A stretch of DNA of 64,000 bases, taken from the NCBI RefSeq assembly GCF_024172085.1, contig NZ_JAMZDZ010000001.1, positions 558,001 to 622,000 of the forward strand, written 5' to 3'. Below the pieces are notes generated by a model, which worked only from the letters and a program-made list of their open reading frames with translations, was not told the DNA's origin and did not search any database. A program made the translations under genes and the position numbers. The stretch is from Hamadaea flava. GTDB lineage: Bacteria > Actinomycetota > Actinomycetes > Mycobacteriales > Micromonosporaceae. Numbering within the stretch: position 1 is the stretch's first letter; each line of letters opens with the position of its first letter. Shown here piece by piece: positions 906-52,900 of this stretch.

Positions 906-1844
906 ATGGACGGGGTTTATCTCGGATCACTGACGTACGCGCTGGGAACCCAGAAGCGGCACGTCCGCGAGTCCGCCGAAGCGGAGCTGCTGCGGTCGGC
1001 CGCGAGCGACCTGGAGGCGGCCGGTTTCCGGTGGCATCACGTATGCGCGCCGGATGAGACGGCATACGACTTGGCGCGCCGGGCGGTGGCGGAGATCGAA
1101 GGAACCAGCGGCCTGCACGACATCGACGCGATCGTCTACGCGACCTGCCTGCCCGAACCGCAGGACGGCCCGATCCGCGACGTCAAGGTGCTGATGGACT
1201 TCCCGGCGAGCCGGTTGCAGGCCGAGTTCGGGCTGCGCGACGCGATCGTGGTCGGGCTGCATCAGCAGGCGTGCACCGGGATGCTCGGTGCGCTGCGGAT
1301 CGCGAAGGCGCTGCTGGCTGCCGAGCCGGAGTTCCGGCGCGTGTTGTGTGTGACCGCCGATCGCTTTCCCGACGGCGCCTGGTACGAGCAGGCGTACAAC
1401 GTGATCTCGGACGGGGCTGCCGCGTGCGTCGTCGGCCGGGAGCCGGACGTGTGCCGGTTGCTCGCCGTTCACCAGATCACCAACGGCGGGCTCGGCCGGG
1501 CAGGCGATGACGAGACCGTCGGCACCTACTTCGCGTACACGCACCGGATCGTGCGGGAGACCGCGGCGCGGATCGGCGTCTTTCCGTCCGAGCTGGACTG
1601 GATCGTCCCGCAGAACACCCACGAGCAGGCGTGGCGGATCGTCGCCCGGCTGCTGGCGGTGGACCACGGGCGGGTGTGGCATCCGTCGCTGCCGGACGTC
1701 GGCCATGTGATCTCCGCCGACGTGGTGGTGAACCTGACCGCGTTGCTGGCCTCGGGCCAGACGCGGCCCGGTCAGCGGATCGCGCTGGCGATGGCCGGGT
1801 TCGGGCTGAACTGGCAGTGCGCGGCGCTGGAGGTGACGAAGTGA
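906..1844 (+). CDS. KAS III-like (thiolase-fold) enzyme, first gene of a carrier-protein operon
   Basis: The protein has 312 residues with a thiolase-fold layout. The nucleophile region is HQQACTGM, giving Cys123, and the usual KAS III start (VYLGSLTYALG) follows the chosen ATG. The other catalytic positions look changed: the segment that normally reads HQAN is PQNTHEQAW (235-243) and the normal Asn loop is GHVISAD (266-272). This suggests acyl transfer, perhaps C-O or C-N bond formation, rather than ordinary fatty-acid condensation; that is inference. In-frame ATGs at 870 and 897 are alternatives and none has a good ribosome site. The gene overlaps the next by 4 bases (GTGA), so it is translationally coupled to it. 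Confidence 0.8.
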   Translation: MDGVYLGSLTYALGTQKRHVRESAEAELLRSAASDLEAAGFRWHHVCAPDETAYDLARRAVAEIEGTSGLHDIDAIVYATCLPEPQDGPIRDVKVLMDFPASRLQAEFGLRDAIVVGLHQQACTGMLGALRIAKALLAAEPEFRRVLCVTADRFPDGAWYEQAYNVISDGAAACVVGREPDVCRLLAVHQITNGGLGRAGDDETVGTYFAYTHRIVRETAARIGVFPSELDWIVPQNTHEQAWRIVARLLAVDHGRVWHPSLPDVGHVISADVVVNLTALLASGQTRPGQRIALAMAGFGLNWQCAALEVTK

Positions 1845-2728
1845 GCGCGTTGGCCACCGCCTTGGCGGAGGTGGCGCCGACGGCCGAGCGGCTGAGCCGG
1901 TTGTCCGAGCGGGCCTTCCAGAATCCCTACACGACAGTCGACTGGCCTTCCACCGTAGAGCCGGAAGCGGACTGGTTCACCAGTCCCGAATACGTCAGCC
2001 TCTACGGCACCGACGTGTGGCCGGGCCTCGACGAGAAGGCTCGCAAGCGACTCGCCTTCCACGAGGCGGCCGGTTTCTACAGCCTCAACATCCATGGCGA
2101 GAAGTCGCTGATGCAGGGCCTCGCCGCCCGGCTGTACCGCAGTGATCTGGCCGCGTTCACCGGCTACCTGCACCATTTCCTCGACGAGGAGAACAAGCAC
2201 AGCGTCTACTTCGGAGGCTTCTGCACCCGATACGCCCGTGTGCACCGGACGCGGCAGCTGCCGTTCGCCACCGAGCGGCCGCGCGATGTGGACGACTTCC
2301 TGTTCTTCGCCAAGACGATGATCTTCGAGGAGATCGTCGACCACTGCAATCGCATCCAGGCCCGGGATCGGCGGTTGCATCCGCTGGCGCGGTTCATCAA
2401 CGACAGCCATCACCGGGACGAGGCCCGACATCTGGCCTTCGGTCGGCAGTTGACCGCCGCGCTCTGGGCGGCGGCGGCACCGGGCTGGGAGCCGGCGGTG
2501 ATCGACGAGATCCGCGCCGACCTCCACCGTTTCCTTGCTGCCAGCTGGCGTGACTACTACCACCCCGACGTCTACGCCGACGCCGGCTTCGCCGAACCCT
2601 GGGAACTGGCCGACCTGGCCTGGTGTACGCCCGCGCAACGGGAGCATCGGCGGCGGGTCTCGGCCAAGTGCCTGCGGGTGCTGACGGCGGCCGGCGTACT
2701 GACCGAGGAGCCGTCCGATGCCTTCTGA
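1841..2728 (+). CDS. AurF-like di-iron N-oxygenase
   Basis: GTG at 1841 overlaps the stop of the upstream gene and gives 295 residues. Ligand motifs of the AurF family are visible in order: Glu87 (HGEKSL), FLDEENKH (116-120, the EExxH), IFEEIVDH (163-168) and HHRDEARH (190-197, the DExxH). AurF enzymes use a di-iron centre and oxygen to oxidise aryl or alkyl amines to hydroxylamine, nitroso or nitro groups. The substrate here is probably an amine held on the carrier protein encoded next; that is inference from gene order. The 3' end overlaps the carrier-protein gene by 11 bases. Confidence 0.85.
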   Translation: MSALATALAEVAPTAERLSRLSERAFQNPYTTVDWPSTVEPEADWFTSPEYVSLYGTDVWPGLDEKARKRLAFHEAAGFYSLNIHGEKSLMQGLAARLYRSDLAAFTGYLHHFLDEENKHSVYFGGFCTRYARVHRTRQLPFATERPRDVDDFLFFAKTMIFEEIVDHCNRIQARDRRLHPLARFINDSHHRDEARHLAFGRQLTAALWAAAAPGWEPAVIDEIRADLHRFLAASWRDYYHPDVYADAGFAEPWELADLAWCTPAQREHRRRVSAKCLRVLTAAGVLTEEPSDAF

Positions 2729-2960
2729 GACCGAGATCCGGCAGGCGTTGCGAACGTTCGTCGCCCGGCACGCCGGAGACGTCGCGATCACCGACCAGAC
2801 CGCGCTGTTCACGGTGCGCGTCCTGCGGTCGATCCACCTGCCCGAGCTGATCATGCTGCTCGAACGGCTGCGCGGTGCGCCGATCGACGTCGAGCAGCTG
2901 CGGATCGGCGACTTCGACAGCATCGACGCGATGCTCACCCGCTTCGGGAGACCCGCATGA
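2718..2960 (+). CDS. Acyl/aminoacyl carrier protein
   Basis: An 80-residue acidic helical protein of carrier-protein size. The phosphopantetheine site is not the textbook DSL: the matching place reads VLRSIHLPELI with Ser38 at the head of helix II. The tail IGDFDSIDAMLTRF is typical of helices III and IV in small carrier proteins. It sits directly before a class II synthetase-like ligase, the arrangement known for stand-alone aminoacyl carrier proteins. It overlaps both neighbours (11 bases upstream, 4 downstream), which suggests equal synthesis. Whether Ser38 is modified is inferred from position. Confidence 0.75.
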   Translation: MPSETEIRQALRTFVARHAGDVAITDQTALFTVRVLRSIHLPELIMLLERLRGAPIDVEQLRIGDFDSIDAMLTRFGRPA

Positions 2961-3835
2961 CCACGCTCGCCGACCTCACCGACCTCGGGCTGCGCTGGGA
3001 CGCGTACGGCCAGTCCGGGCTGTCCGGTCCGCTGCTGCGCCTCGCCGACGACCTCGATCTGGCGCTGCGCCGGCTGGCCGGGAGCTGGGACGCCGTCGAG
3101 GAACAACCGCCTGCGACGCTGCCTGCAGCGGACCTCACCAGTCACCTGCGCGCCTTCCCGCACCAGGCCACCTTCACGATGGGGCTCGAACCCGGCGACG
3201 TCAATCTCGGCGAGTTCGCCGACGGCCCGGTGGTCGACCCGGCCGGATCCGTCGTGCTCACGCGCACCGGCCCGGTCACGACCGTCCTCACTCCGGCTGC
3301 CTGCTTCCACGTGTACGCGCAACGCCGGGGTGTGCAGCTGGCCGAGGCGGCGTACGTGACGACGCGGTCCACGTGCTTCCGCCGCGAGGAGCGCTACGAG
3401 CCGCTTCAGCGGCAGTGGAGTTTCGCGATGCGGGAGATCGTCTGCCTCGGCACCTCGGCCGAGGCGGCGTCGTTCCTCACCGACACCCGGACGCTGGCCG
3501 ACGACTTCAGCCGGTTGGTCGATCTGCCGCTGGACTGGTCGCCCGCGACCGATCCGTTCTTCCGGCCGCACCTCCAGCCCGGGTTCCTGATGCAACGCGT
3601 ACAGCTGGTCAAGCACGAGGCGGCCTATGGCGCGTTGGCGCTCGCCTCGGCCAACCGGCACCACTCGCATTTCGGCTCCACCTTCGGCATCTCGCGGGAC
3701 GGTGTGCCGGCGTCGACGGCGTGTGTCGCCTTCGGCCTCGAACGCTGGCTGTACGCCCTGGTCGACCGGCACGGCACCGACCCGGGTAGCTGGCCGGACC
3801 TGGTGGCGGCGGCGGAGCAGGCGGTGGCCCGATGA
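2957..3835 (+). CDS. Amino acid:[carrier protein] ligase, class II aaRS-like
   Basis: The 292-residue protein is a catalytic core of a class II, seryl-tRNA-synthetase-like enzyme with no tRNA-binding arm. Motif 2 is TCFRREERYEPLQRQW (139-154) and motif 3 is AFGLERWLYAL (258-268). Known members (described from Bradyrhizobium and Agrobacterium) activate glycine or alanine with ATP and load it on a carrier protein, using a zinc held by Cys-Glu-Cys. Cys116, Glu160 and Cys256 fall at matching places here. The partner is almost certainly the adjacent carrier protein. The amino acid used cannot be read from sequence. Four-base ATGA overlaps join it to both neighbours. Confidence 0.85.
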   Translation: MTTLADLTDLGLRWDAYGQSGLSGPLLRLADDLDLALRRLAGSWDAVEEQPPATLPAADLTSHLRAFPHQATFTMGLEPGDVNLGEFADGPVVDPAGSVVLTRTGPVTTVLTPAACFHVYAQRRGVQLAEAAYVTTRSTCFRREERYEPLQRQWSFAMREIVCLGTSAEAASFLTDTRTLADDFSRLVDLPLDWSPATDPFFRPHLQPGFLMQRVQLVKHEAAYGALALASANRHHSHFGSTFGISRDGVPASTACVAFGLERWLYALVDRHGTDPGSWPDLVAAAEQAVAR

Positions 3836-4887
3836 CGACGCTGATCACCGGCGCGGACGGCTATCTGGGCCGCCGCATCGCCACCGCCCTGGCCGCCGAC
3901 GACGACCTCGTGCTGGCCGTACGCGCGGCGGACAACGCCGAGCTGAACCGGAAACGCGCCAAGCTCGCCCACCTGCCCGGGGCCGAGGTCGTCCCGGCCG
4001 ATCTGCGCGACGGCGACCCGTTCGCGTACGTGGATCCCCGACGGATCACGCGGATCGTCCACGCGGCCGCGCTGATTCGGTTCGACCTTAAGCGCGACCG
4101 CGCCGAGCAGGTCAACGTGACCGGCACGGCCCGCGTACGCCAGTTCGCGGAGCGCTGTGGCGACCTCGACCGGCTCGTCTTCCTGTCCACCCTGTACGCC
4201 GCCGGCCGCCGCCACGGCGAAGTACGCGAGACGCGGCTGACCGACGCCGGGTTCGCCAACCATTACGAGTGGTCGAAGTGGGCGGCCGAGGAGGTCCTGC
4301 TCGCCTCGGATCTGCCACTGACCGTGCTGCGCCTGCCGACGGTGATCGCCGAGGACGACAGCGGCGCGATCGGTCAGTTCAACGTCTTCCACCACACGTT
4401 GCGGCTGTTCCATCAGGGGCTGCTGACGCTGCTGCCCGGCGACCCGGCGACGCCGCTGAGCCTGGCCACCGCCGAGTTCACGGTGGACGCCGTGCGGGCG
4501 ATGCTCGCGGCCGATCCGGGGATCTACCACGTCTGCGGCGGGGCGCTGCCGCTCGGCACAGTGATCGACACGGCGTTCACCGTGTTCGAGCGGGATCCGG
4601 CGTTCCTGCGGCGGATGCTGCCCCGGCCGTTGCCGTGCGACCGGGCTGCGTTCCTCGACCTGGCCGACGCGGCCCGGCGGCTGCGCGGCGGCCCGCTGCA
4701 ACCGGCGCTGACCTCGATGCTCCCCTTCGCCGAACAGCTCTACCTGCCCAAGACTTTCCGGACCGACCGGCTGCGCGCCGCCTGGCCCGGATATCGCGAG
4801 CCCGACCCCGTCGCCGTCATCGCGGCGGCCACCGGCGCTCTGCTCGCGGCGCCGGTCGAGAGGAGACGCCATGCTGCAGCGCGTTGA
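3832..4887 (+). CDS. Extended SDR, thioester-reductase-like
   Basis: The protein has 351 residues. The N-terminus is a Rossmann fold with TGADGYLGRR (6-15), and the active-site set follows: FLST (117-120) and YEWSK (145-149, YxxxK). The layout (DPRRITRIVHAAALIRFD, then NVTGTARV) is that of NAD(P)-dependent extended SDRs related to thioester reductases of carrier-protein pathways. It could release the carrier-bound product as an aldehyde or alcohol, or act as an epimerase/dehydrogenase on a free intermediate. The first reading fits the neighbours but is inference. It overlaps the next gene by 17 bases. Confidence 0.75.
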   Translation: MTTLITGADGYLGRRIATALAADDDLVLAVRAADNAELNRKRAKLAHLPGAEVVPADLRDGDPFAYVDPRRITRIVHAAALIRFDLKRDRAEQVNVTGTARVRQFAERCGDLDRLVFLSTLYAAGRRHGEVRETRLTDAGFANHYEWSKWAAEEVLLASDLPLTVLRLPTVIAEDDSGAIGQFNVFHHTLRLFHQGLLTLLPGDPATPLSLATAEFTVDAVRAMLAADPGIYHVCGGALPLGTVIDTAFTVFERDPAFLRRMLPRPLPCDRAAFLDLADAARRLRGGPLQPALTSMLPFAEQLYLPKTFRTDRLRAAWPGYREPDPVAVIAAATGALLAAPVERRRHAAAR

Positions 4888-5959
4888 ACTGCCCGGAGCG
4901 GTCGACGATCGGCTGTTCTTCGCCCAGGTCCGGGAGGACCCGCAGGTCGAGATCGACGCCTTCGCCGGGCGCTGGGACGGCCCGATCGCCGTGGTCAGCT
5001 CGGCCGGATGCACCGCGTTGTCCCTGGTCGCCGCAGGTGCGCCGGACGTCACCGGGGTGGACGTCAACCGTACGCAGAACCATCTCGTCGAGTTCAAGGC
5101 GGCCGCGGTCGACCGGCTGGATCGGCGTACGGCGCTGGGCCTGCTCGGGGCGGTCCCGATGAGCGCCGACGACCGGCGGTACGCGTACCGGGGCATCCGC
5201 GGAGTGCTGAGCTCGGCGGCGAGCGGCTATTGGGACGGCCGTCCCGCCGCCGTCGGCCGGGGTGTGCTCCAGTCCGGCGTCACCGAGCGGCTGATGCGCC
5301 TGATCGCCCGCGTCGTACGCACGACGCACCGCCGCCGGGTGCCGGACTTGCTCCGGCTGTCCACCATCGACGATCAACGACGGTTCTATCGCGACGAGTG
5401 GGACTCGCCGGCCTGGCGGGCGCTGTTCCGGGTGCTGTGCAACCGGCTGGTGCTGCGGCGGGCGTACGACGAGCGGTTCTTCGCCCACGTCGAGGACGGA
5501 ACCTACGCGGCTCACTTCCACGCCGTCGCCGAGCACACGCTGAGCGACCTCTCGGTGTCCGACAACTACTTCCTGCACTACCTGCTCACGGGCAGCTATC
5601 CGGTGACGAGCCGGCCGCCCTACCTGGCCGGCTCCGTCCCGGTCGGTCGGCTCGACCTCGTCGACGCCGCGTTCACCGACTATCTGCGTACGCGGCCGGA
5701 CCACAGCATGGCCGGTTTCGCCTTGTCGAACATCTGCGAATGGCTGACCGCCGAACAGATCGACGACCTGTTCGCCGAGATCGTCCGAACGGCCCGGCCC
5801 GGCGCCCGGCTCGTCTTCCGCAACTTCGTCGGCTGGACCGAGGTGCCCGAGCGCTGGCGCGACGCCGTACGCGAGGACCGCCCGCTCGGCGAACGGATGA
5901 TCCGCGCCGACCGCAGTCTGTGCCAGCGTCGTGTCGCCGTCTGCGAGGTGGCCGCATGA
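4871..5959 (+). CDS. DUF3419 / BtaA-like 3-amino-3-carboxypropyl transferase
   Basis: A 362-residue protein of the DUF3419 family, whose best-known member BtaA moves the 3-amino-3-carboxypropyl group of S-adenosylmethionine to diacylglycerol during betaine-lipid synthesis. The SAM-binding part is VVSSAGCTALSLVAAG then VTGVDVNRTQNHLVEFKAA (41-78). A second conserved block is VSDNYFLHYLLTG. ATG at 4871 is preceded by AGGAGA. There is no BtaB-type N-methyltransferase nearby, so betaine lipid is unlikely. In this operon it may instead alkylate a pathway intermediate with the homoserine-like unit; that is inference. Confidence 0.75.
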   Translation: MLQRVELPGAVDDRLFFAQVREDPQVEIDAFAGRWDGPIAVVSSAGCTALSLVAAGAPDVTGVDVNRTQNHLVEFKAAAVDRLDRRTALGLLGAVPMSADDRRYAYRGIRGVLSSAASGYWDGRPAAVGRGVLQSGVTERLMRLIARVVRTTHRRRVPDLLRLSTIDDQRRFYRDEWDSPAWRALFRVLCNRLVLRRAYDERFFAHVEDGTYAAHFHAVAEHTLSDLSVSDNYFLHYLLTGSYPVTSRPPYLAGSVPVGRLDLVDAAFTDYLRTRPDHSMAGFALSNICEWLTAEQIDDLFAEIVRTARPGARLVFRNFVGWTEVPERWRDAVREDRPLGERMIRADRSLCQRRVAVCEVAA

Positions 5960-6996
5960 GAGTCCGTGACGCTCGCCCCACCGACAACGACGCCTTGGTG
6001 AGCCTGGCCGCGCAGTCCACGATGGATGGCGACCTCGCGCTGCGGTTCGACCGCGAACCTGACTACTTCGCGCTGAACCGCCTCGCCGGGGACACCTGGC
6101 GGGTCGGCGTGGTCGACGGCGACGCCGGGCCGCTCGGGTGCATCGCGGTCGCCCGCCGGACCGCGTTCCTGGACGGCGAACCGGGCGAGATCGCGTACGT
6201 CGGCGACCTGAAGGTCCACCCGGACTTCCGGCGGCGGGGCGTCGCCCGCTCGCTCGGGCATTGGGCGTACGCCGCCGCACAAGATCTGGTGGGTCCGCAC
6301 GCGCCGATGATCTCGACGGTGCTGGCGGGCAACGACGCCGCCGCGACGCTGGCCCTGGGCTTCCTCCCGGGCGTGACCCGCTGGGCGACCATCCGCTCCG
6401 CCAGCGTCGACCTGCTGACCCGGCACCGGCCGCGCCTTTCGGATCTCGGCGTACGCCTCGCCGAACCGTCCGACGAACCGGAGATGGTCAAGCTCTGGCA
6501 CCGGCTGGCGACGCGACGGCAGTTCGCGCCCGTCCTCGCCGGTCTCCCGTTCGGCCAGCCCGGTCTGGAGTACCTGCTGGCCCGGCGGCCGGACGGCGAC
6601 CTGGCCGGCTTCGTCGGGCTGTGGGACCAGCACGACATCAAGCAGATGCGCGTGATGGGCTACTCCCCCAGGCTGGCCGCCATCCGCCTCGCGTTCAACC
6701 TTGCCGCCCCGTTGTTCGGCACGCCGCGGTTGCCGAAGCCGGGCGGAGCGCTCGGCTACCGCACGGCGGTCAACGTGTGCGCCGACACCCCGGAGACACT
6801 GCGTACGCTGCTGCGCCACGGCTGCGACCGGCTCCACGGGAAGTACTCGTTCCTCACCGTCGGCCTGGACACCCGCGATCCGCTGGCCTGGGCGCTGACC
6901 GGGTTGCGCGCCCAGCCGACCGACGTCGACCTGCTGGTGCTGAACGGTCCCCGCGACCGGGACGCGTCCGTCCACTTCGAAATCGCCACGGTCTGA
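5956..6996 (+). CDS. GNAT-family acetyltransferase, last gene of the operon
   Basis: 346 residues with an N-terminal GNAT domain. The acetyl-CoA loop is seen in VGDLKVHPDFRRRGVARSLG. The second half (from about residue 155, VRLAEPSDEPEMVKLWHRL) resembles a second, degenerate GNAT fold. The start ATG overlaps the DUF3419 stop (ATGA), so it is translated with the pathway. A role in N-acylating the product, or in self-protection, is plausible but not shown. Confidence 0.75.
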   Translation: MRVRDARPTDNDALVSLAAQSTMDGDLALRFDREPDYFALNRLAGDTWRVGVVDGDAGPLGCIAVARRTAFLDGEPGEIAYVGDLKVHPDFRRRGVARSLGHWAYAAAQDLVGPHAPMISTVLAGNDAAATLALGFLPGVTRWATIRSASVDLLTRHRPRLSDLGVRLAEPSDEPEMVKLWHRLATRRQFAPVLAGLPFGQPGLEYLLARRPDGDLAGFVGLWDQHDIKQMRVMGYSPRLAAIRLAFNLAAPLFGTPRLPKPGGALGYRTAVNVCADTPETLRTLLRHGCDRLHGKYSFLTVGLDTRDPLAWALTGLRAQPTDVDLLVLNGPRDRDASVHFEIATV

Positions 6997-7031: not shown

Positions 7032-7685
7032 ATGACTTTGAGTCGCGGCTGGGTCTCCGCCGGATTGGGACCCCATCGTCCGGTGAGCGGAACCTACGGC
7101 TTCGATCCCGCCACGGACCTCCCCGCGCTACCGCTGGACCACCCGGGCGGGCTCCACGCCTGGATGACCGAACTGGTCCCGCTGAACGAGCTGGCCAAGG
7201 GCCGCTACGGGATGGCCACGCTGGGCGGGCCGGTCAGCATAGCGGGGCACCGGGCCGCGCTGCCCGACTCGTTCATCGCCTTCATGAAAGACTCGGCGCT
7301 GCGCGACTCCGTTCCCACCTGCACCTCGTGCTACTGGGAAAGCGACCTGCCGGCCGCACCCAGCCCGGTCACCGAAGGCGCCACCCTCGTCCGCTTCCTC
7401 AACGACCAGCAGGGCTGCCTCTTCTGGTACCTGCACCTGCTCCCCTCCGGCGCGCACGAGGTCGTCTGCGGCGGCATCGCGTACGACTGCGAAGAGGCCG
7501 AACCGCACGAGGCAGCCGAAGACCTTCTGCTCGTGGCCGACGACTTCGACGAGTTCATCGCCCGCTTCTGGATCGAGAACCTCGCCTGGTACGAGGTGGT
7601 CGGCCAGAAGCGAGCCGAGGACGAGCTGTCGCCGCCGGTACGCGACTACGTCCGCCAGCTCGGCCCCGTCGACGAACTCAGCTGA
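7032..7685 (+). CDS. Conserved hypothetical protein, possibly SUKH/SMI1-like
   Basis: 217 residues, soluble, acidic, with no signal peptide or membrane segment. It has a cysteine pair (PTCTSCYWES) and the run RFLNDQQGCLFWYLHLLPSG, followed by an acidic stretch DDFDEFIARFWIENLAWYEV near the end. The DEFI..FWIEN tail recalls SMI1/KNR4 (SUKH) folds, but the match is weak. It has its own leaderless-type promoter and is convergent with the DUF1152 gene. Confidence 0.6.
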   Translation: MTLSRGWVSAGLGPHRPVSGTYGFDPATDLPALPLDHPGGLHAWMTELVPLNELAKGRYGMATLGGPVSIAGHRAALPDSFIAFMKDSALRDSVPTCTSCYWESDLPAAPSPVTEGATLVRFLNDQQGCLFWYLHLLPSGAHEVVCGGIAYDCEEAEPHEAAEDLLLVADDFDEFIARFWIENLAWYEVVGQKRAEDELSPPVRDYVRQLGPVDELS

Positions 7686-29255: not shown

Positions 29256-31598
29256 CTACGGCATCTCCTCGACCTGCTTGAGTTTCGGCCGCACGTCGGC
29301 GGCCGACGGATGGTTCAGCTCGTCCAGGATGCGCAACGCGTCTCGCCACGATCCGGCCGCCAGGCTCCACTCGGCCGCGCCGAAGTGGTTGTCTCCCAAG
29401 TGCACCAGCGTGTCCGCCTCGTGATAGCGGTCGCCGATCTCCCGGTAGAGCCGGATCGCGTTCTCGTAGCAGCGGACCGCCTCGGCGTGGTCACCGAGGT
29501 GCTGGTGGGCGTACCCGAGGCTGTCCCAGACCGGCGCCTGCCCGAATCGGCTGCCGAGTTCGGCGTGCACCGCCAGGGCTTCGGTGCAGCGCGCGACGGC
29601 CTGCTCGTACTCGCCGAGCAACGCGTGATACCAGCCCACCACGTTGAGCGACCGGGCACGGCCGGTCTGGTGGCCGGCCGTCTGGAAGAGGTCGAGCGCC
29701 TGCTGCGAGCAGGCGAGCGCGGCGGACATTCGGCCGTGCTGCTCGTGGACCCGCGACAACGCGATCTGGCTGTTGGCCTCACCCACGAGGTCGCCGATGC
29801 GCCGGAAGTTCTCGGCGGCGTCGAGGAGCAGCGCCTCAGCGTCGTCCCACCGTCCGAAGCGGATGTGCGCCCGCGCCAGGATCCGCTGGGCTTGGGCCAG
29901 ACCCGTCGGGTCCGCTGCCGCGCGGGCCGCCTCGGCCGCGATCTCCTGGGTGGCCGTCAGATCGTGCCACTGGCCACGCCAGTCCAGCACGTCCGCGATC
30001 GCCCAGGCCAGCTGCCAGGTGAGTACGCCGAGCCCGGCTTGTTCGCCCTGCCGGATCTGGGCCAGCAGCACCGGATGCTCGGCGGCGAACCAGGCGCGCG
30101 CCTGGTCGATGTCCTCGAAGGACTCGGCAGTGATCGCGGGATCGGCGGGGTGCAGTGCGATCCGGTCCCGTTGCGGGTAGATCGTGAGGGCGGCGTCGTG
30201 GGCACTGTGCAGGTAGTGGCCGAGCGACCGCCGGATCGCCGCCCGGCGGACGGGCGCGCTGTCCAGCGTCTCGGCCTGTTCGGCGGCGTACGCCCGGAGC
30301 AGGTCGTGGAAGGCGTACCGGCCGGACAAGGTCTGGCTGAGGAGGTTGGCCCGGACCAGTTCGGTGAGCGACTGCTGGGTAGCCGTCGCGTCGGTCCCGG
30401 CGACGCTGGCCGCCGCCGCGAGGGTGATGTCGGGTCCAGGGTGTACGCCGAGCAGCCGGAACATCCGGGCAGCCGGTTCGCCGAGGGCGCGCAGGGAGTA
30501 GGAGAAGACCGCGCGGACGTCGGCGGTGGCGTCCTCGTCGGCGAACGCGTCGAGGCCCTGCCGGGCATCTCGCAGTTGCGTGACGAGCCGGGTCAGCGAC
30601 GGCTCGGCACGGGCGCGCGCGGCGATGATCGCCAACGCGAGCGGCAGCCGGGCGCATCGGCGCACGAGTTCGTCGACGGCCTCCGGTTCCCGGGCGACCG
30701 CCTCCGGGCCGAGCCGGTTCGACAGGATGCGTACGCCCTCGGTCGCCGACGGCAGCTCGAGCAGCAGGGGTTGCGCTCCCTCTGTGACGACCAGGCTGGA
30801 CAGCCGATTCCGGCTGGTGATCAGGGTGAGGCAGTGCGGCGAGCCGGGCAGCATCGGCCGGATCTGCTCGGCGCTGCGGGCGTTGTCCAGCACCAGCAGT
30901 ACGCGCCGGTCGGCGAGGACGCTGCGGAACAGGGCGGACTGGGCTTCCACGGTCAGCGGGATGCGCTGCGCCTCGACTCCGAAGGCTTCGAGCAGGCCGC
31001 GTAGCGCCTCTGCGGCGCCGACCGCCGGGCCGCGACCGTCGAAGCCGCGCAGGTTCAGATAAATCTGCCCGTCGGGGAATCGCGCGGCGGCCCGGTGCGA
31101 CCAGTGGATCGCCAAGGCGGTCTTACCGACTCCGGCGGTGCCCGAGATGGTGGAGATCACTGCCGAGGTGGCCGATCCGCCCAGCGGCAGCCGCTCGTCG
31201 AGTTCGGCGAGTTCGGCCTCCCGGCCGGTGAAGTGCGGCACGTCGGCCGGCAGCTGACGGGGCTTCGGCCAGCCGGGTACGCCGCTAGCCGGCCCGGCAC
31301 CGCCGCGTCGCCCGTCGGCGATCCGGTCGCGGAGGGTGGCGAGCGAGCCCTGTTCCGCCGGGGTGGCGCCCAGCAGCGCCACGAGGATGTCGAACCGGTC
31401 GGTCGGCGGCAGCGTCCGTCCGGCGAAGTATCCGGCGATGATCCCGATGGACCAACCGGTCCGGGCAGCGATCTCCCGATAGGTCAGCTCGGAGTCCCGG
31501 CGTTGATGGGCCTGCCGCCGGCGCAGCTGCCGCAGCAACGCGGCCAGGCCGTCTACAGTGTCCACACCGGACGCGGCACCCACGATCTCGCCGTTCAT
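29256..31598 (-). CDS. STAND regulator: HTH, NB-ARC ATPase and TPR
   Basis: 780 residues. An XRE-like helix-turn-helix (LTYREIAARTGWSIGIIAGYFAG, 38-60) is followed by an NB-ARC ATPase with P-loop ISGTAGVGKTALAIHW (151-166), Walker B DRRVLLVLDNARS and GLPL-like ARLPLALAIIAAR. The C-terminal third is TPR repeats (AQRILARAHIRFGRWDDAEALL and similar). Such proteins sense a ligand through the TPRs and switch a DNA-bound oligomer. ATG 31598 has GGAG upstream. It diverges from the secreted protein gene at 31806, its likely target. Confidence 0.88.
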   Translation of the reverse strand: MNGEIVGAASGVDTVDGLAALLRQLRRRQAHQRRDSELTYREIAARTGWSIGIIAGYFAGRTLPPTDRFDILVALLGATPAEQGSLATLRDRIADGRRGGAGPASGVPGWPKPRQLPADVPHFTGREAELAELDERLPLGGSATSAVISTISGTAGVGKTALAIHWSHRAAARFPDGQIYLNLRGFDGRGPAVGAAEALRGLLEAFGVEAQRIPLTVEAQSALFRSVLADRRVLLVLDNARSAEQIRPMLPGSPHCLTLITSRNRLSSLVVTEGAQPLLLELPSATEGVRILSNRLGPEAVAREPEAVDELVRRCARLPLALAIIAARARAEPSLTRLVTQLRDARQGLDAFADEDATADVRAVFSYSLRALGEPAARMFRLLGVHPGPDITLAAAASVAGTDATATQQSLTELVRANLLSQTLSGRYAFHDLLRAYAAEQAETLDSAPVRRAAIRRSLGHYLHSAHDAALTIYPQRDRIALHPADPAITAESFEDIDQARAWFAAEHPVLLAQIRQGEQAGLGVLTWQLAWAIADVLDWRGQWHDLTATQEIAAEAARAAADPTGLAQAQRILARAHIRFGRWDDAEALLLDAAENFRRIGDLVGEANSQIALSRVHEQHGRMSAALACSQQALDLFQTAGHQTGRARSLNVVGWYHALLGEYEQAVARCTEALAVHAELGSRFGQAPVWDSLGYAHQHLGDHAEAVRCYENAIRLYREIGDRYHEADTLVHLGDNHFGAAEWSLAAGSWRDALRILDELNHPSAADVRPKLKQVEEMP

Positions 31599-46287: not shown

Positions 46288-46908
46288 CTACTGACTGAGC
46301 TTGGCGACCGCGATCCGGGCTGCCTTCTTCGCGATCGGAATGGGACTGTCCACGTGCCGCCCGATCTGCTCCACCGCCCGGGTGGCCTTGAGCTTCGTCA
46401 GGGCGGTGATGGCGAAGGCCACGACGTCGTCGTCGTCCAGTTCGCCGATCAGCGCGTCGATGACCTCCTCCCGGCGCGCGCCCTGACCGATCCGGCCCAG
46501 CGCCTGCACGACCATCTGCCGGGCGCCCCGATAGCTTCGATCGGTGGCCAGCTCGAGCATCTCGTCGAGCAGGGCGGCGTCGGCGGCCTGGTCCAGCGCG
46601 TTGCCGACCGTCCACTTGTACCCCTCCGGCAGCCGCGGGTCGCGGAAGAGGCGTACCAGGGCGGGACCGGCGTCGGGCCGTGCGGTGCGGACGGTCAGCG
46701 CCCGGGCGACGGTGTCCCACAGGTACCACCGATCGCGGTCGGGCAGGTCCGCCGTCCCGATCTCGTCGATCCAGCGGATGAGGACCGGGACGGCGGCTTT
46801 GGGCAGATCCTCGAGGGTGGTGAGGTCGCCGGGGTGCTTCACCTGCACCCCGGCGGCCGCGAGATCTTCCGTCATCTGCCGCATCACATGTGCAAGGGCG
46901 GTAGCCAT
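46288..46908 (-). CDS. HEAT-repeat protein, likely immunity partner of the RHS toxin
   Basis: 206 residues with repeated helical pairs: GPALVRLFRDPRLPEGYKWTVGNALDQAADAALLDEML, RGARQMVVQALGRIGQGARREEVIDALI and VVAFAITALTKLKATRAVEQIGRHVDSP, the pattern of HEAT/PBS-lyase repeats. Its first 25 bases overlap the 3' end of the giant RHS gene, with AAGGAT as ribosome site inside the toxin coding sequence. Immunity genes of polymorphic toxins always lie just after the toxin tip, and HEAT-like folds occur among them. The role is inferred from position and coupling. Confidence 0.75.
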   Translation of the reverse strand: MATALAHVMRQMTEDLAAAGVQVKHPGDLTTLEDLPKAAVPVLIRWIDEIGTADLPDRDRWYLWDTVARALTVRTARPDAGPALVRLFRDPRLPEGYKWTVGNALDQAADAALLDEMLELATDRSYRGARQMVVQALGRIGQGARREEVIDALIGELDDDDVVAFAITALTKLKATRAVEQIGRHVDSPIPIAKKAARIAVAKLSQ

Positions 46909-49900
46909 TTGTAGATCCTTATGAGCCGCAGCTGCTGAGCCGAGCGCATCGCCGTCGAGATGATCGCGTCCTGGCGCACGATGTACACCGGGACCTTGCC
47001 GACCGACTCGGCGTACAGTATCAAGTCGAGGGTCTGACCAGTGAAGTCGACGGTGTCCTCGGCCTTGACCTCGACTACGGTTCGCCGTTTGGCGTTGTAG
47101 TCCGGGAACCGGCGGGCTGCCTCACCCGAGAACGACCTGACCGCCTTCTTGCCTCGTGCCGGGATGCCCAGAGCCTTCTCAGCCTCAGCGCCCACGATCC
47201 GGTTGATCCTCAGTTGCGCGATCCGTGCGGCCCGCTTGGCCATCACCGCCGCCTCGGCGGCCTTGGCCGCCTGACGCGCCCGGATGACGTTCTTGATCTT
47301 CGCGATGCCCTTGCCGCCGAAGACCAGTTCGGCGACCGAGAACACCGCCCGTCCGATGGCTTCGCCGTAGTTGCCCCGGTTCCAGTCGTCGGCGATCGGA
47401 TCCCAGACGCTGTGCCAGACGCCGCCCCAGAATTCGCCCGGGTTGTCGCCGGCGTAGTTCCACAGCTCGCTGATCTGCTGACCGCACGGGAAGCAGCCGA
47501 CCACCGCGGCGCCGAAGTCCCACAGGCCCGTGACGGTCGCCCAGGCCTGCTCGCCGATGCCCTTGAAGAACCCGCCGACCTGCTTGAGCCAGTTCGGAAC
47601 CGAGAAGTGGCCGTCGACCTCGAAGTTGCCGATCGGGTTGCCCGAGGCGAACAGGTACCGGTTGGCGGTGCCCGCGCCCATGCCGAGCTGGAAGTCGGCC
47701 AGGGCACCGGTGTAGAAGTCGGGCGTGAGGAATCGCGACGCGGTCGGCGAGTAGTCGCGGAATCCCATGTCGTAGGTGCCGCCGGCCTGATCCCACCGTT
47801 GGGCGTTGAACCGGTAGAGGTTCACCGGCCGCTTGACGCGGAGCAGGTCGGCGGAGTCGGGCTTGTCGACGCCCGTGAACATCGGGGCGTCGTCCTGGCC
47901 GTACGCGGTGTACCCGTAGGTGGCCCGGGTGTTGCCGCTGGTGTCGGTGATCGCTTCGACGTCACCGCGGGCGTTGTGCACGTAGTTGAACTCGCCCGTG
48001 GGTCCGCCGTCGTTCGCGGTGACGGTTTGCGAGATCCGCTCGCTGCCGGCGCCGTACCGATAGGCGGTGGTGCTCGTGGTGCTCGTGGCGACACCGGCGG
48101 TCCGTTGTTCCGACAGCACCAGGTCGCTGGCGCCCATGTACCGGATGGTGGTGTCGGCCTGTCCTTCCAACTGCGCGCCGGTGTCGCTCGCGCCGTAGAT
48201 CTTCCGGCTCGTGGAGGTCGTGCGGTTCAGCGTGTCGTACGCGTAGTCGGTGATGGACTGATACCGGAAGTAGGAGACCTCGTTCCGGATCTTGCGGTCG
48301 AAGCCGTCGTAGGTGTACCCGCTGAAGCTGTTCGACGGCTCACCCGGATCGCCGCCGCTGACGATCGACGTGGACCGGATCTGCTCGGTCCGGCCGAACG
48401 GGTCGTAGTAGTAGAAGGACGAGGTCGTGGTGGTGGTGCCGTCGTCGTTCGGCGATCCGCCGATGGTCTTGGTCAACCGGTTGCGGTCGTAGAAGTTCGC
48501 GGTGGTGCTCTTCTTCCCGCCGGGCTCGGCGAACTCCTCGGTGAGGATGTTGCTGTTCGCGTCGTAGACGTACTTCTCGGTCCGGTCCGTGCCCTTGGTG
48601 ACCTGGGTGACCCGATCACGCGGGTCGTACTGATAGGTCAAGGTCCGGTCGAGGTACGCGCTGGTGTTGTCGGCGTTCATCAGCCGGGCGACGTCTTCGG
48701 ACGGATTGCCGTTGAGGTCGTACTTGAGCGTGTGTTCGGCGATCAGGCGACCAGGCGTGCCGGTGTTCTCGGCGAGGTGGCGCAGCCGCCCGTCAGCGAA
48801 GTACGTGTAGTCGACGTTCCCGCCGAGGGGCTTGGTCTGGTGTGCCAGCTGGCCGCGGGGCGTGTAGGTGTACGCACTTATCCGTGGGTTCGGATCGCCG
48901 GGCTGGGCCAGGTTCTTCGCGGTCGTGACGAGGTCCCGGGCGTCGTACACGAACTCGTCGATGAGTGCGTCGAAGGTCCGCTTGGTGACGTTGCCGTTGG
49001 CGTCGTAGTCGTAGGTGGAGGTGTGCTGTACCGCGCCGGCGTCGATCTCATTCATCGCGGCCAGCTGGTTGAGACCCGTGTAGGTCATCGTGTAGCGATC
49101 GATCTGAGAGCCGGTGCTTCCGTCGCTCAGCGTCGTGAGGTTGCCGTTGGCGTCGTAGGTGTAGGTGTACGACTGCCGCTCGTTGTCGACCACCCCGGTG
49201 GTGTCGCGGACGAACTTGATGGCGTCGGCCACGACGATGCCGTTGGCGTTGTCCGACAGCGTGACCATGTCGGTGTTGGTCAGGATCACCATGGGATAGG
49301 TGCCGAGGCTGACCCACTCGCCGGCGTGTTGGGTCTGGTCGACGGTCTTGGTCTGGCCGAACAACGTGTACTTGGCGTCGGTCGCCGCGCCGGCCACCGC
49401 CGGGTACCGCACGAACACCTCGTAGTCGTCGTTCGCGTGGCGGTTCGGCGGTACCCAGGTGAACTTGTTCGCCCCGGTGCCGGGCGCGTGCGTGGCGTAG
49501 TCGGTGCCGACGTATCCGGTGCCCTGGCTGGTCGTCGTCCAGTCGCCCACCGTGGCGACGTAGTGCTCGTCGGTGTTGTCCCACAGCGACACGTCGCTGC
49601 CGACCGGTACGCCTTCGTCGGCCCGGTTCTGCAGTTTGCCGTCGGGGTAGTACGACATCGTCATCGTGTGGGTGAGGCCGCCGTCCGCCCCGGTGACGGT
49701 CCGGCGGGTCTGCTGTCCCAGCGGGTTGTAGTCGAACGTCGTCGAGATGCCGAACGGGTCTGTGGTCGATGCGATCCAGCCGTTGTCCAGGTAGCTGTAG
49801 GTGGAGTCGACTCGGGCGCCCGCCGCTCCGGGGACCTTGCCCGACGTCGGCTGGGAGACCTTGGTCAGGTTGCCGACCTCGTCGTAGGTGTACTGGATCT

Positions 49901-52900
49901 TCTCGCCGACGGTGTAGTACGCGTCGTCCTTGTCGTACGGGAGGACCTGCTCCTTGATCCGGTTGAGTTCGTCGTACACCGCGACCTGTGCGAAGTCGTC
50001 CGGATCGTCGGTGGTGGCGACGCCGCGCGGGCTGACCACCTTGGTGCGGTTGCCGACCTGGTCGTACTCGTATCGGGTGAGGTGGTACGCGACGACGCCG
50101 CTGACCGTGTCGTACGGCTCCTTGGCCTCGGCGAGCAGCCCACGCGCGTCGTACGTCAGGAAGGTCTGGTTGTTCTCCTCGTCGGTGGTCGTGACCATCA
50201 GCCCGTCGTGGTCGTAGCCGACGCTCGAGGTGAAGCCGGCCGCGTCGGTCGAGGTATGCACCTGGCCGTCGCTGTCGTAGGTGACCTTCGTGGTGAAGTC
50301 GTCCGGGTCCGCCGTGGCGTTCTTCAGCTGGTCGACCACCTTCGTGGTGTTGCCGACGCTGTCGAAGGTGTAGCTGATGACGCCGTTGCGGGCGTCGGTG
50401 ATCGTGGTGTTCTGATAGATCTCGTCGTACGCGTAGCGGGTCACGAAATCGTTGGCGTCGGTGGTGAGGTTGCCGTTCGGCTCGGTCACCGTGAGGACGT
50501 TGCCGACCTTGTCGTAGCCGTAGCTGGTCTTGCGGTCCGGTCCGCCGGTGGTGTCCTTCGGCGCGAAGGTGGCGGTGGTCCGGTCGCCGGCGTCGTAGGT
50601 GGCGGTCGTCAGGGCGCCGTTGGCCGCGGTGGATTCGAGGATGTTGTCGTTGGCGTCGTATACAGGGGCCGGTTTGACGAGGAAGTCACCGGTCGCCGCG
50701 TTCTTGGGCACCCGCGCGGTCAGCGGACGGTTCATCAGGTCGAAGCCGAACGTGCTGGTCTTGCCCTTGGCGTCGGTCACGGACAAGACGTTTCCGCGCA
50801 CGTCGTACGCCTTCGTGCTCGTCCGGGTCAGCGCGTCGGTGCTCGTCTTGGGCAACCCCGTGGGGTCGTAGGTGCCGAAGGACGTGCTGTGCCCGTTGGC
50901 GTCGGTGATCTTCGTCAGCTGGCCGAAGGTGTCGTACTCGTAGGTGGTCGTGAAGTCGCTGGCGGCCGGGGTGCTGGTGCCGGCCGGATCGGTGGCGCTG
51001 GTGAGGTTGCCCTCCAGGTCGTAGCCGAACGTCCAGCGACGGCCCTCGGAGGACTGCTTGGCGATCAGGTCGGCCCAGTGCCCGGTCAGCCCCGACTGGT
51101 ACGCGTACGTGGTGCCGGGCCAGCCGTTCTTGACCTGCTCGGCGGTCTTCGACTCGGTCGGATATCCCGTCTTCGGGTCGTACGCCGAGGTCGACACCGA
51201 ACCGTCGGCCTCTTCGAGGCGGATCACATTGTGGTCGCCGTCCCAGCCGAGCTTGGTCGTCTGGTTCTTGGCGTTGGTGGTCTGGAACGTCCGGCCGTAC
51301 CCGTCGGTGAGGAAGGTGGCCGGGTGGTTCTCGGCGTCGACCACCACCGTGGTGATGTTGTCGCCGGTCTGCCCGTCGGGGTCGCTGTAGGCGAACGCGA
51401 TCGGGTTGCCGAGCCGGTCGGTGTAGTCCTTGGTCGCCCAGTGGAACTTCGGGTCGTCATCGGGCAGGCCGTAGTACCGCAGCGCGGTGCCGTGGCCTCG
51501 CGGATCGACGACCTTCACGAGCTTGACGTTCTTGTTGCCTTGCGTCATGTCGTACTGGAACCCGAACACCTTCGGCTGGGTCCATCCGGCGCCGTCGATC
51601 AGCTCGCCGAGCAGGCCCTTGTCGGTGTAGGTGAAGGTCAGCGTACGGCCGGCGATGTCCACGATGGAGCGGACGTGGTCGATGATCTTCGGGTTGGTCA
51701 GGTTGCTCTGCCCGGTGACCTTGGCCCAGGTGGTGTCGTTGACGTAGTCGTACGTGTCGCCCTTGGCCCAGTAGGTCAGGGTGAGCACCTGGCGTCCGGT
51801 GGCGTCGGTGATGTATTTGAGGAACTTGGTCGGCTTGTTCTGCGAGCGGCGCACCTCGTAGGTGAAGGTCATGAGGTTGCCGTTCTTGTCCTCGATCGAC
51901 GACAGGTACCCGTCGCAGTCGTAGGAGAAGACGGTGCGGTCGGGCCGGGTCATCGTCCAGGCGCGGTCCGCTTCCGTCTGCGCCTTGCACGTGACGAGCT
52001 GCTGCAGGAACAGGTGCACGCCCTTCGGCGAGGTCCACTCGTTGGCCGTCGCGTTCCAGCTGAAGGTGTGCGTGGTGCCGTCGCCGTCGGTGAGTTTGAC
52101 GGTCGTCGGGTTCGGATTCGGGTGGAAGTCCAGGGACGAGCCCAGGCGCAGCGGCGACGACGCCTGCAGCGACCAGCCGTACCCGGTCACCGTGTCGGTG
52201 GTGTCCTGCGAGTTGTACGCGAGTCGCAGGACGGTCGAGATGCCCCGGGACGGGTTGCTCATTGCGTCGTAGGTCCACACGGTGTTGCCCGCGTGCAGGT
52301 TGTTCATCAGGGCGGACCCGGCGCCGGTGTCGACCCCGTCGTAGCTGTAGAAGCCCTCCAGACCGAGCTGGTCGGACGTGGGTTCCTCGACGGCGACCTT
52401 CTGGTCGAGCGCCGCGATGCCGGCGGACGCGGACAGCCACTGACCGGTCGTCTTGTTGTGCAGCTCCCACTTGAGCACGTAGTCGGTCCGCTTGTTCGCG
52501 TCGGACGGCGCGGGCGTCTTGACCGTGGCGGTCACGTCGGCCGTCGACCCGGCGGTGATGTCGCGGGGCAACGCGGTCGCGACCTGGTTGCCGCTGGTCG
52601 TGACGTCCGTGCCGTCGGGCAGCGTCCAGTGGTAGGACAGCTCCCAGTTCGCCGCGGGCCAGGCCGTGGTGGTGGGGTTGGAGACCGAGACGGTCACCGG
52701 GTAGGTGCTGGCCGGCGCCATCAGCCCGGCGGTGCCGGGCGCGTAGTAGGTGGACTCGGCGGTGGGTTCCAGGTAGGTGACCCGCAGCGTCGGGCGCAGC
52801 ATCGGCTCGGCGCCCTCGCTGGACAGCAGCATCGCGCGCTGGGTCGACACCGCCTCGTCACGCATCTTGAGCAGGAACCCGTAGTTCGACGCCGGGGTGG

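Follow-up and report, generated by a model that had tools for sequence, protein, structure and literature searches.

Seven overlapping genes in the genome of Hamadaea flava appear to encode a complete NRPS-free small-molecule pathway, in which an amino acid would be loaded onto a carrier protein, N-oxidized, joined to an acyl group, reduced, aminocarboxypropylated and N-acylated. We put the probability of this reading at about 0.5. It is based on the gene content, the intact catalytic residues, the selection on the genes, the pairing and fusion of the DUF3419 and GNAT genes, and the exchange of this pair for an ICMT-like methyltransferase. The operon lies in a stretch of 64,000 nucleotides (hereinafter the window, meaning the whole stretch analyzed), which is within a single 8.86 Mb contig. 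Its genes are as follows:

906..1844, + strand, KAS III-like enzyme (312 aa; ATG start at 906, GGAGG upstream)
1841..2728, + strand, AurF-type ferritin-like di-iron N-oxygenase (295 aa; GTG start; PF11583)
2718..2960, + strand, stand-alone carrier protein, ACP (80 aa; called from position and homologues)
2957..3835, + strand, class II aaRS-like amino acid:carrier protein ligase (292 aa; NF005479, Bll0957 3mey)
3832..4887, + strand, extended SDR, thioester-reductase-like (351 aa; NAD_binding_4, TIGR01746)
4871..5959, + strand, DUF3419/BtaA-like putative 3-amino-3-carboxypropyl transferase (362 aa; PF11899)
5956..6996, + strand, GNAT (346 aa; N-terminal acetyltransferase domain and conserved C-terminal half; PF00583)

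The six junctions overlap by 4, 11, 4, 4, 17 and 4 nt, in line with the 4 to 17 bases given in an earlier, sequence-only reading of this DNA, and the enzyme families which that reading had assigned to all seven products were upheld. Six of the assignments were backed by profile matches; the carrier protein gave no match to Pfam PP-binding (PF00550) and was called from its position, an alignment of homologues and a conserved Ser in an RSIH motif. When 301 genomes of the same family were searched with the ligase, a relative was found in 51, and the 10-20 kb around the best ones were gene-called. The exact block KAS-AurF-ACP-ligase-SDR-DUF3419-GNAT was present in the same order in 12 genomes including that of the window. 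Ten of the further blocks came from same-family genomes and the eleventh from a Streptosporangiaceae genome (L063), the other carriers belonging to Hamadaea, Catellatospora and Allorhizocola. The co-occurrence of ligase, AurF and DUF3419 genes, which the earlier reading had proposed to look for, extends to the full block in 11 further genomes. The junction overlaps were mostly kept among these blocks, with variation that partly reflects the choice of start codon, and dN/dS against three relatives was 0.12-0.44 for all seven genes. The shared order, the kept overlaps and these dN/dS values argue that the gene set is not a product of chance.

Outside Hamadaea, the neighbors of the block were non-homologous, and the flanks differed between genera. 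Since the block recurs with such flanks and its dN/dS is below 1, it is a self-contained functional unit. Flanking tailoring genes, namely a family 2 glycosyltransferase (3-695) and the genes past 6996, showed no conservation with the block beyond Hamadaea and were excluded. A gene immediately 3' of the operon (7083-7685, + strand) encodes a 200-aa protein with no Pfam match and was common only to the nearest Hamadaea MAG (L034). A promoter scan of the operon found none, and only one internal terminator-like match was obtained, a count below chance expectation. Two PPTases were encoded in the host genome.

When GTDB contigs were scanned with an AurF protein alignment, 80 loci were obtained, which were annotated using the first-set profiles. 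The five-gene core KAS-AurF-ACP-ligase-SDR was found in 61 loci from many phyla, and three classes were distinguished among the scanned loci. In the majority of the core loci, FAAL-type, second-carrier and second ferritin-like genes are added, together with either an ICMT-like methyltransferase or DUF3419 and GNAT. Class 1 is the seven-gene type of the window. In class 2, the five-gene core is joined by a PPTase, a protein of 196 aa (c9), an additional ACP (ACP2) and a fatty-acyl-AMP ligase (FAAL), often accompanied by an MMPL transporter and usually by an ICMT-like methyltransferase. Its hosts among named genera were Streptomyces, Nocardia, Mycobacterium (M. simulans) and Kineosporia, and it was also found in MAGs of Acidobacteria, Obscuribacterales, Melainabacteria, Omnitrophota, Nitrospirae and Proteobacteria. 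Class 2 apparently constitutes a separate pathway family that has not been described. Its loci, from many uncultured phyla, include L083, L085-L088, L092-L101, L103, L105-L108, L110 and L111. Two ExxH motifs and weak matches to di-iron proteins and bacterioferritins make c9 a probable second di-iron protein of the ferritin-like kind; no c9-type partner was found anywhere in the host genome of the window, in a search that had no positive control. The window clade carries DUF3419 and GNAT but has no FAAL, MMPL, ICMT or ACP2 at the locus. In a core tree built from KAS, AurF, ligase and SDR, this clade was sister to Nocardia loci bearing DUF3419, c9 and fatty-acyl genes, and class 1 therefore looks like a reduced form. 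Class 3 contains AurF, ACP and ligase genes with a nitronate monooxygenase (NMO) and has neither KAS nor SDR. This trio with NMO was detected in Streptomyces, Micromonospora and Tistrella, with an O-methyltransferase added in Tistrella and in locus L048. On the Tistrella mobilis plasmid pTM2 (L132:11932-16242), genes for the di-iron oxygenase, carrier, ligase, nitronate monooxygenase and methyltransferase are consecutive, and NCBI names among them are 'diiron oxygenase', 'aminoacyl--tRNA ligase-related protein', 'nitronate monooxygenase' and 'methyltransferase'.

The ligase of the operon matched the NCBIfam model NF005479 (amino acid--[ACP] ligase) with an E-value of 1.9e-35 and 122 bits, below the curated cut-off of 357, and is therefore a relative and not an orthologue. 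It also matched Bll0957 (PDB 3mey; 1e-26), with about 30% identity over 239 residues. Like Bll0957-type ligases, it has a class II SerRS-like fold as judged by sequence, class II motifs and a Cys/Glu/Cys Zn site, and at 292 aa it has no tRNA-binding domain. The Zn ligands C116, E160 and C256, as well as R142, were conserved in at least 97% of the 61 core loci. Bll0957-type enzymes are Gly/Ala ligases, and the loading of a small amino acid is predicted from this relationship.

The AurF protein (PF11583, E = 1.6e-35) retains all six metal ligands and the seventh His typical of N-oxygenases (E75, E117xxH120, E163, H190, E194xxH197), each conserved in at least 97% of the 61 core loci. The pattern is the one listed for FDO N-oxygenases (PMC12154687), and the enzyme probably oxidizes a carrier-bound amine. 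No PDB homologue of AurF was found, profile search included, so the oxidation state that it reaches cannot be read from structure. The host genome contains a second, canonical AurF-family gene (G000:C1:2410509-2411330), with a score of 343 bits, compared with 123 bits for the copy in the operon. Glycine-derived nitronate cassettes share with the operon a di-iron oxygenase, a carrier protein and amino acid activation, and NMO cassettes hold the same three families (AurF, carrier, ligase) in adjacent genes. In the enteromycin-class route, as given in PMC9967187 and the title of its reference 35, glycine bound to a carrier is the substrate of a di-iron oxygenase, and the next enzyme is a nitronate O-methyltransferase; the same paper cites the glycine-nitronate work of He and Ryan (2021) on enteromycin carboxamide O-methylation and NMO denitrification. 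The operon differs from these cassettes in that KAS, SDR, DUF3419 and GNAT take the place of a nitronate monooxygenase or O-methyltransferase, and its AurF and ligase share only about 35% identity with their counterparts in NMO cassettes. For the KAS-containing core AurFs as a group, identity to the NMO-cassette AurFs is likewise only ~35%, and their substrate and product may therefore differ.

The KAS III-like enzyme had been left out of the path proposed by the earlier reading, but it belongs to the core and carries an acyl-transferring signature. It matched ACP_syn_III_C (3.8e-12) and ACP_syn_III (2.2e-9). The changed catalytic residues that had been noted in it were confirmed: the active site is Cys123-His267-Asp272, and the position of the PHQAN motif, which is His-Gln in FabH, is occupied by Gln236-Asn237. 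The Cys-His-Asn triad of decarboxylating KAS III (FabH) is thus missing, with the PHQAN His replaced by QN and GN by GH....D, whereas the signature of acyl-transferring KAS III (Cys/Ser and His....Asp in the GH motif) is complete in C123, H267 and D272. All five residues (C123, H267, D272, Q236, N237) were conserved in at least 97% of the 61 core loci. The best PDB match in both sequence and fold was the acyltransferase ChlB3, which showed the same GH....D pattern in the alignment, and DpsC and CerJ were among the top matches. Although the operon KAS shares the Cys and the GH....D motif with these three enzymes, structural alignment gave only 18-22% identity, and the near-invariant Gln-Asn in the PHQAN position sets it apart. 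From the Cys-His-Asp pattern and these fold matches, the enzyme is not a FabH and resembles KAS III enzymes of the acyl-transferring type. The SDR matched NAD_binding_4 (9.9e-27) and Thioester-redct TIGR01746 (1e-17; 64.5 bits against a cut-off of 213), and its TGxxGxxG and Y145xxxK149 motifs were conserved in at least 97% of 59 core loci.

The same active site could also serve a nitro-Claisen condensation, in which KAS would use the acidic carbon of a nitroacetyl-carrier against a Cys-held acyl thioester to give an alpha-nitro-beta-ketoacyl-carrier without decarboxylation, the SDR would reduce the ketone, and DUF3419 would alkylate the hydroxyl, nitronate or carbon. Retention of the KAS Cys while the decarboxylation His/Asn are replaced is consistent with this chemistry, as are the co-occurrence of KAS and SDR in the core and the supply of an acyl-carrier in sister loci by FAAL and ACP2. 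However, Cys-His-Asp also fits simple acyl transfer as in ChlB3 and CerJ, and no precedent for the condensation was found in the literature searched; we consider it unlikely.

The clusters for fragin and valdiazen (ham, mgo) also combine a carrier-bound amino acid, an AurF-type N-oxygenase and thioester-reductase-type release, but they contain an NRPS and further partners that are absent in the operon. Haem-oxygenase-like and cyclase proteins of the MgoB/MgoD type are the partners in this hydroxylamine/diazeniumdiolate logic. If the operon followed it, AurF would form an N-hydroxy or nitroso aminoacyl-carrier, the reductase would yield an alcohol, and DUF3419 would alkylate N or O. The thioester-reductase-like character of the SDR agrees with such a route, as does the use of carrier-bound amino acids by the AurF-type oxygenases there (see PMC5878181 and PMC11659414). 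The operon has no haem-oxygenase-like or cyclase partner and no NRPS, which makes the route quite improbable.

The DUF3419 protein matched PF11899, the family of BtaA, with 5.1e-49 and 167.9 bits, above the gathering score of 28.2. It forms its own subfamily. BtaA itself acts on the hydroxyl of diacylglycerol and works with the methyltransferase BtaB, but no BtaB-like partner is encoded in the operon. Its SAM motif SSAGCTAL and D64xN66 were conserved in 19 loci. A fold search with the AlphaFold model gave only weak matches to class I SAM enzymes, all with E above 0.01, including the isonocardicin synthase Nat (8zhu; E 0.04). Both BtaA and Nat are 3-amino-3-carboxypropyl transferases, and transfer of this group is the putative function of the operon protein, predicted from its BtaA family membership.

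The GNAT matched Acetyltransf_1 (PF00583) at 2e-6. Its distribution shows that it is not incidental to the set. It was found only alongside DUF3419, and in three Acidimicrobiales/Actinomycetota loci the two are fused into a protein of about 755 aa (L090:301-2568, L098:4058-6331 and, on the - strand, L099:4122-6407). Once the duplicate of one genome and two spurious loci had been removed from the core set, 36-37 of the 61 core loci carried only an ICMT gene, approximately 20 only DUF3419, and four neither; three of these four are short contigs, and some contigs end early. The sole locus with both was from Nocardia, where DUF3419 was accompanied by a weak ICMT-like gene (28 bits). The ICMT/DUF3419 state changed at least three times on the core tree, and the mutual exclusion is phylogenetically independent for about three events only. 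A search of 395 genomes of the class gave no operon-type DUF3419 at a distance from core genes; the other DUF3419 proteins scored at most 131 bits against 698 and had no core genes within about 1.5 kb. The pairing and fusion, the exclusion of ICMT and the restriction of operon-type DUF3419 to the core support the view that DUF3419 and GNAT form one module standing in for the methyltransferase. A membrane lipid instead of a diffusible metabolite, with DUF3419 acting BtaA-like on lipid hydroxyls and N-oxidation decorating the head group, would suit the betaine-lipid family of DUF3419 and the FAAL, MMPL transporter and membrane ICMT of sister loci, but none of these nor ACP2 is present at the locus in the window clade, and the second ferritin-like protein (c9) was not found in the host genome (again without a positive control), so that such a product appears rather improbable.

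The small-molecule pathway that we prefer would start with the ligase, which would adenylate a small amino acid and load it onto the stand-alone carrier; glycine is the most likely substrate, and alanine a possible one. AurF would then oxidize the tethered alpha-amine to the nitronate (aci-nitroacetyl-carrier) or halt at the oxime; the nitronate is suggested by the class 3 cassettes and by the enteromycin-class route (PMC9967187). As suggested by their families and active sites, the KAS III-like enzyme would act as an acyltransferase via Cys-His-Asp and thereby couple the N-oxidized unit to an acyl group, and the SDR would reduce the thioester or the resulting ketone, thereby aiding product release. 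DUF3419 would transfer the 3-amino-3-carboxypropyl group of S-adenosylmethionine to a product oxygen (nitronate, oxime or hydroxyl), the step occupied in sister pathways by the ICMT-like methyltransferase; O-alkylation is proposed from its relationship to BtaA and from this swap. GNAT, given its pairing with DUF3419, would acylate the new alpha-amine. Each chemical step, the choice of amino acid and the order in which KAS, SDR and DUF3419 act are what we infer from the genes, and the sequence aminoacyl-carrier, N-oxidation, alkylation from SAM, put forward in the earlier reading, agrees with the comparative evidence.

That reading had also claimed that the gene set was novel, which can be maintained in part. 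No published description of the exact set was found in open papers, and the gene sets in published descriptions of nocuolin-type and azoxy clusters do not match the operon. The five-gene core is present in many phyla, however, and the AurF-carrier-ligase trio occurs in cassettes with NMO or an O-methyltransferase, whose chemistry has already been described for nitronates derived from glycine (title cited in PMC9967187). The parts of the operon are of known kinds. To our knowledge, it is the seven-gene combination and the DUF3419/GNAT module that are new.

On a wider scale, the loci might represent a phylum-spanning NRPS-independent family that joins N-oxidized glycine (nitronate or oxime) to acyl groups via an acyltransferase-type KAS III and caps it by interchangeable SAM alkylators. 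The product of the window branch would then be a nitronate or oxime with an O-(3-amino-3-carboxypropyl) group, the first from nature, and would subsequently be N-acylated. We offer this only as a tentative proposal. Natural products with a nitro, nitronate or oxime group are rare and reactive, and here the gene sets are compact (seven genes, about 6 kb), with no NRPS or large PKS. The range of the family extends from cultured actinomycetes to uncultured Acidobacteria, Obscuribacterales, Omnitrophota and Proteobacteria. Because of the DUF3419/ICMT swap, it can be tested directly whether one and the same intermediate is served by an aminocarboxypropyl transferase using SAM in place of a methyltransferase, and, if this is true, a DUF3419 subfamily would have a function beyond betaine lipids.

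Elsewhere in the window, a gene at 46884-55574 (- strand) encodes an RHS-repeat protein of 2896 aa. It contains Golvesin_C domains, and its C-terminal part matches Tox-REase-7 just under the Pfam cut-off. The adjoining HEAT-repeat gene (46288-46884) could be a candidate immunity partner. A protein with HTH, NB-ARC and TPR domains, of signal-transduction or STAND type, is encoded at 29256-31598 (- strand).
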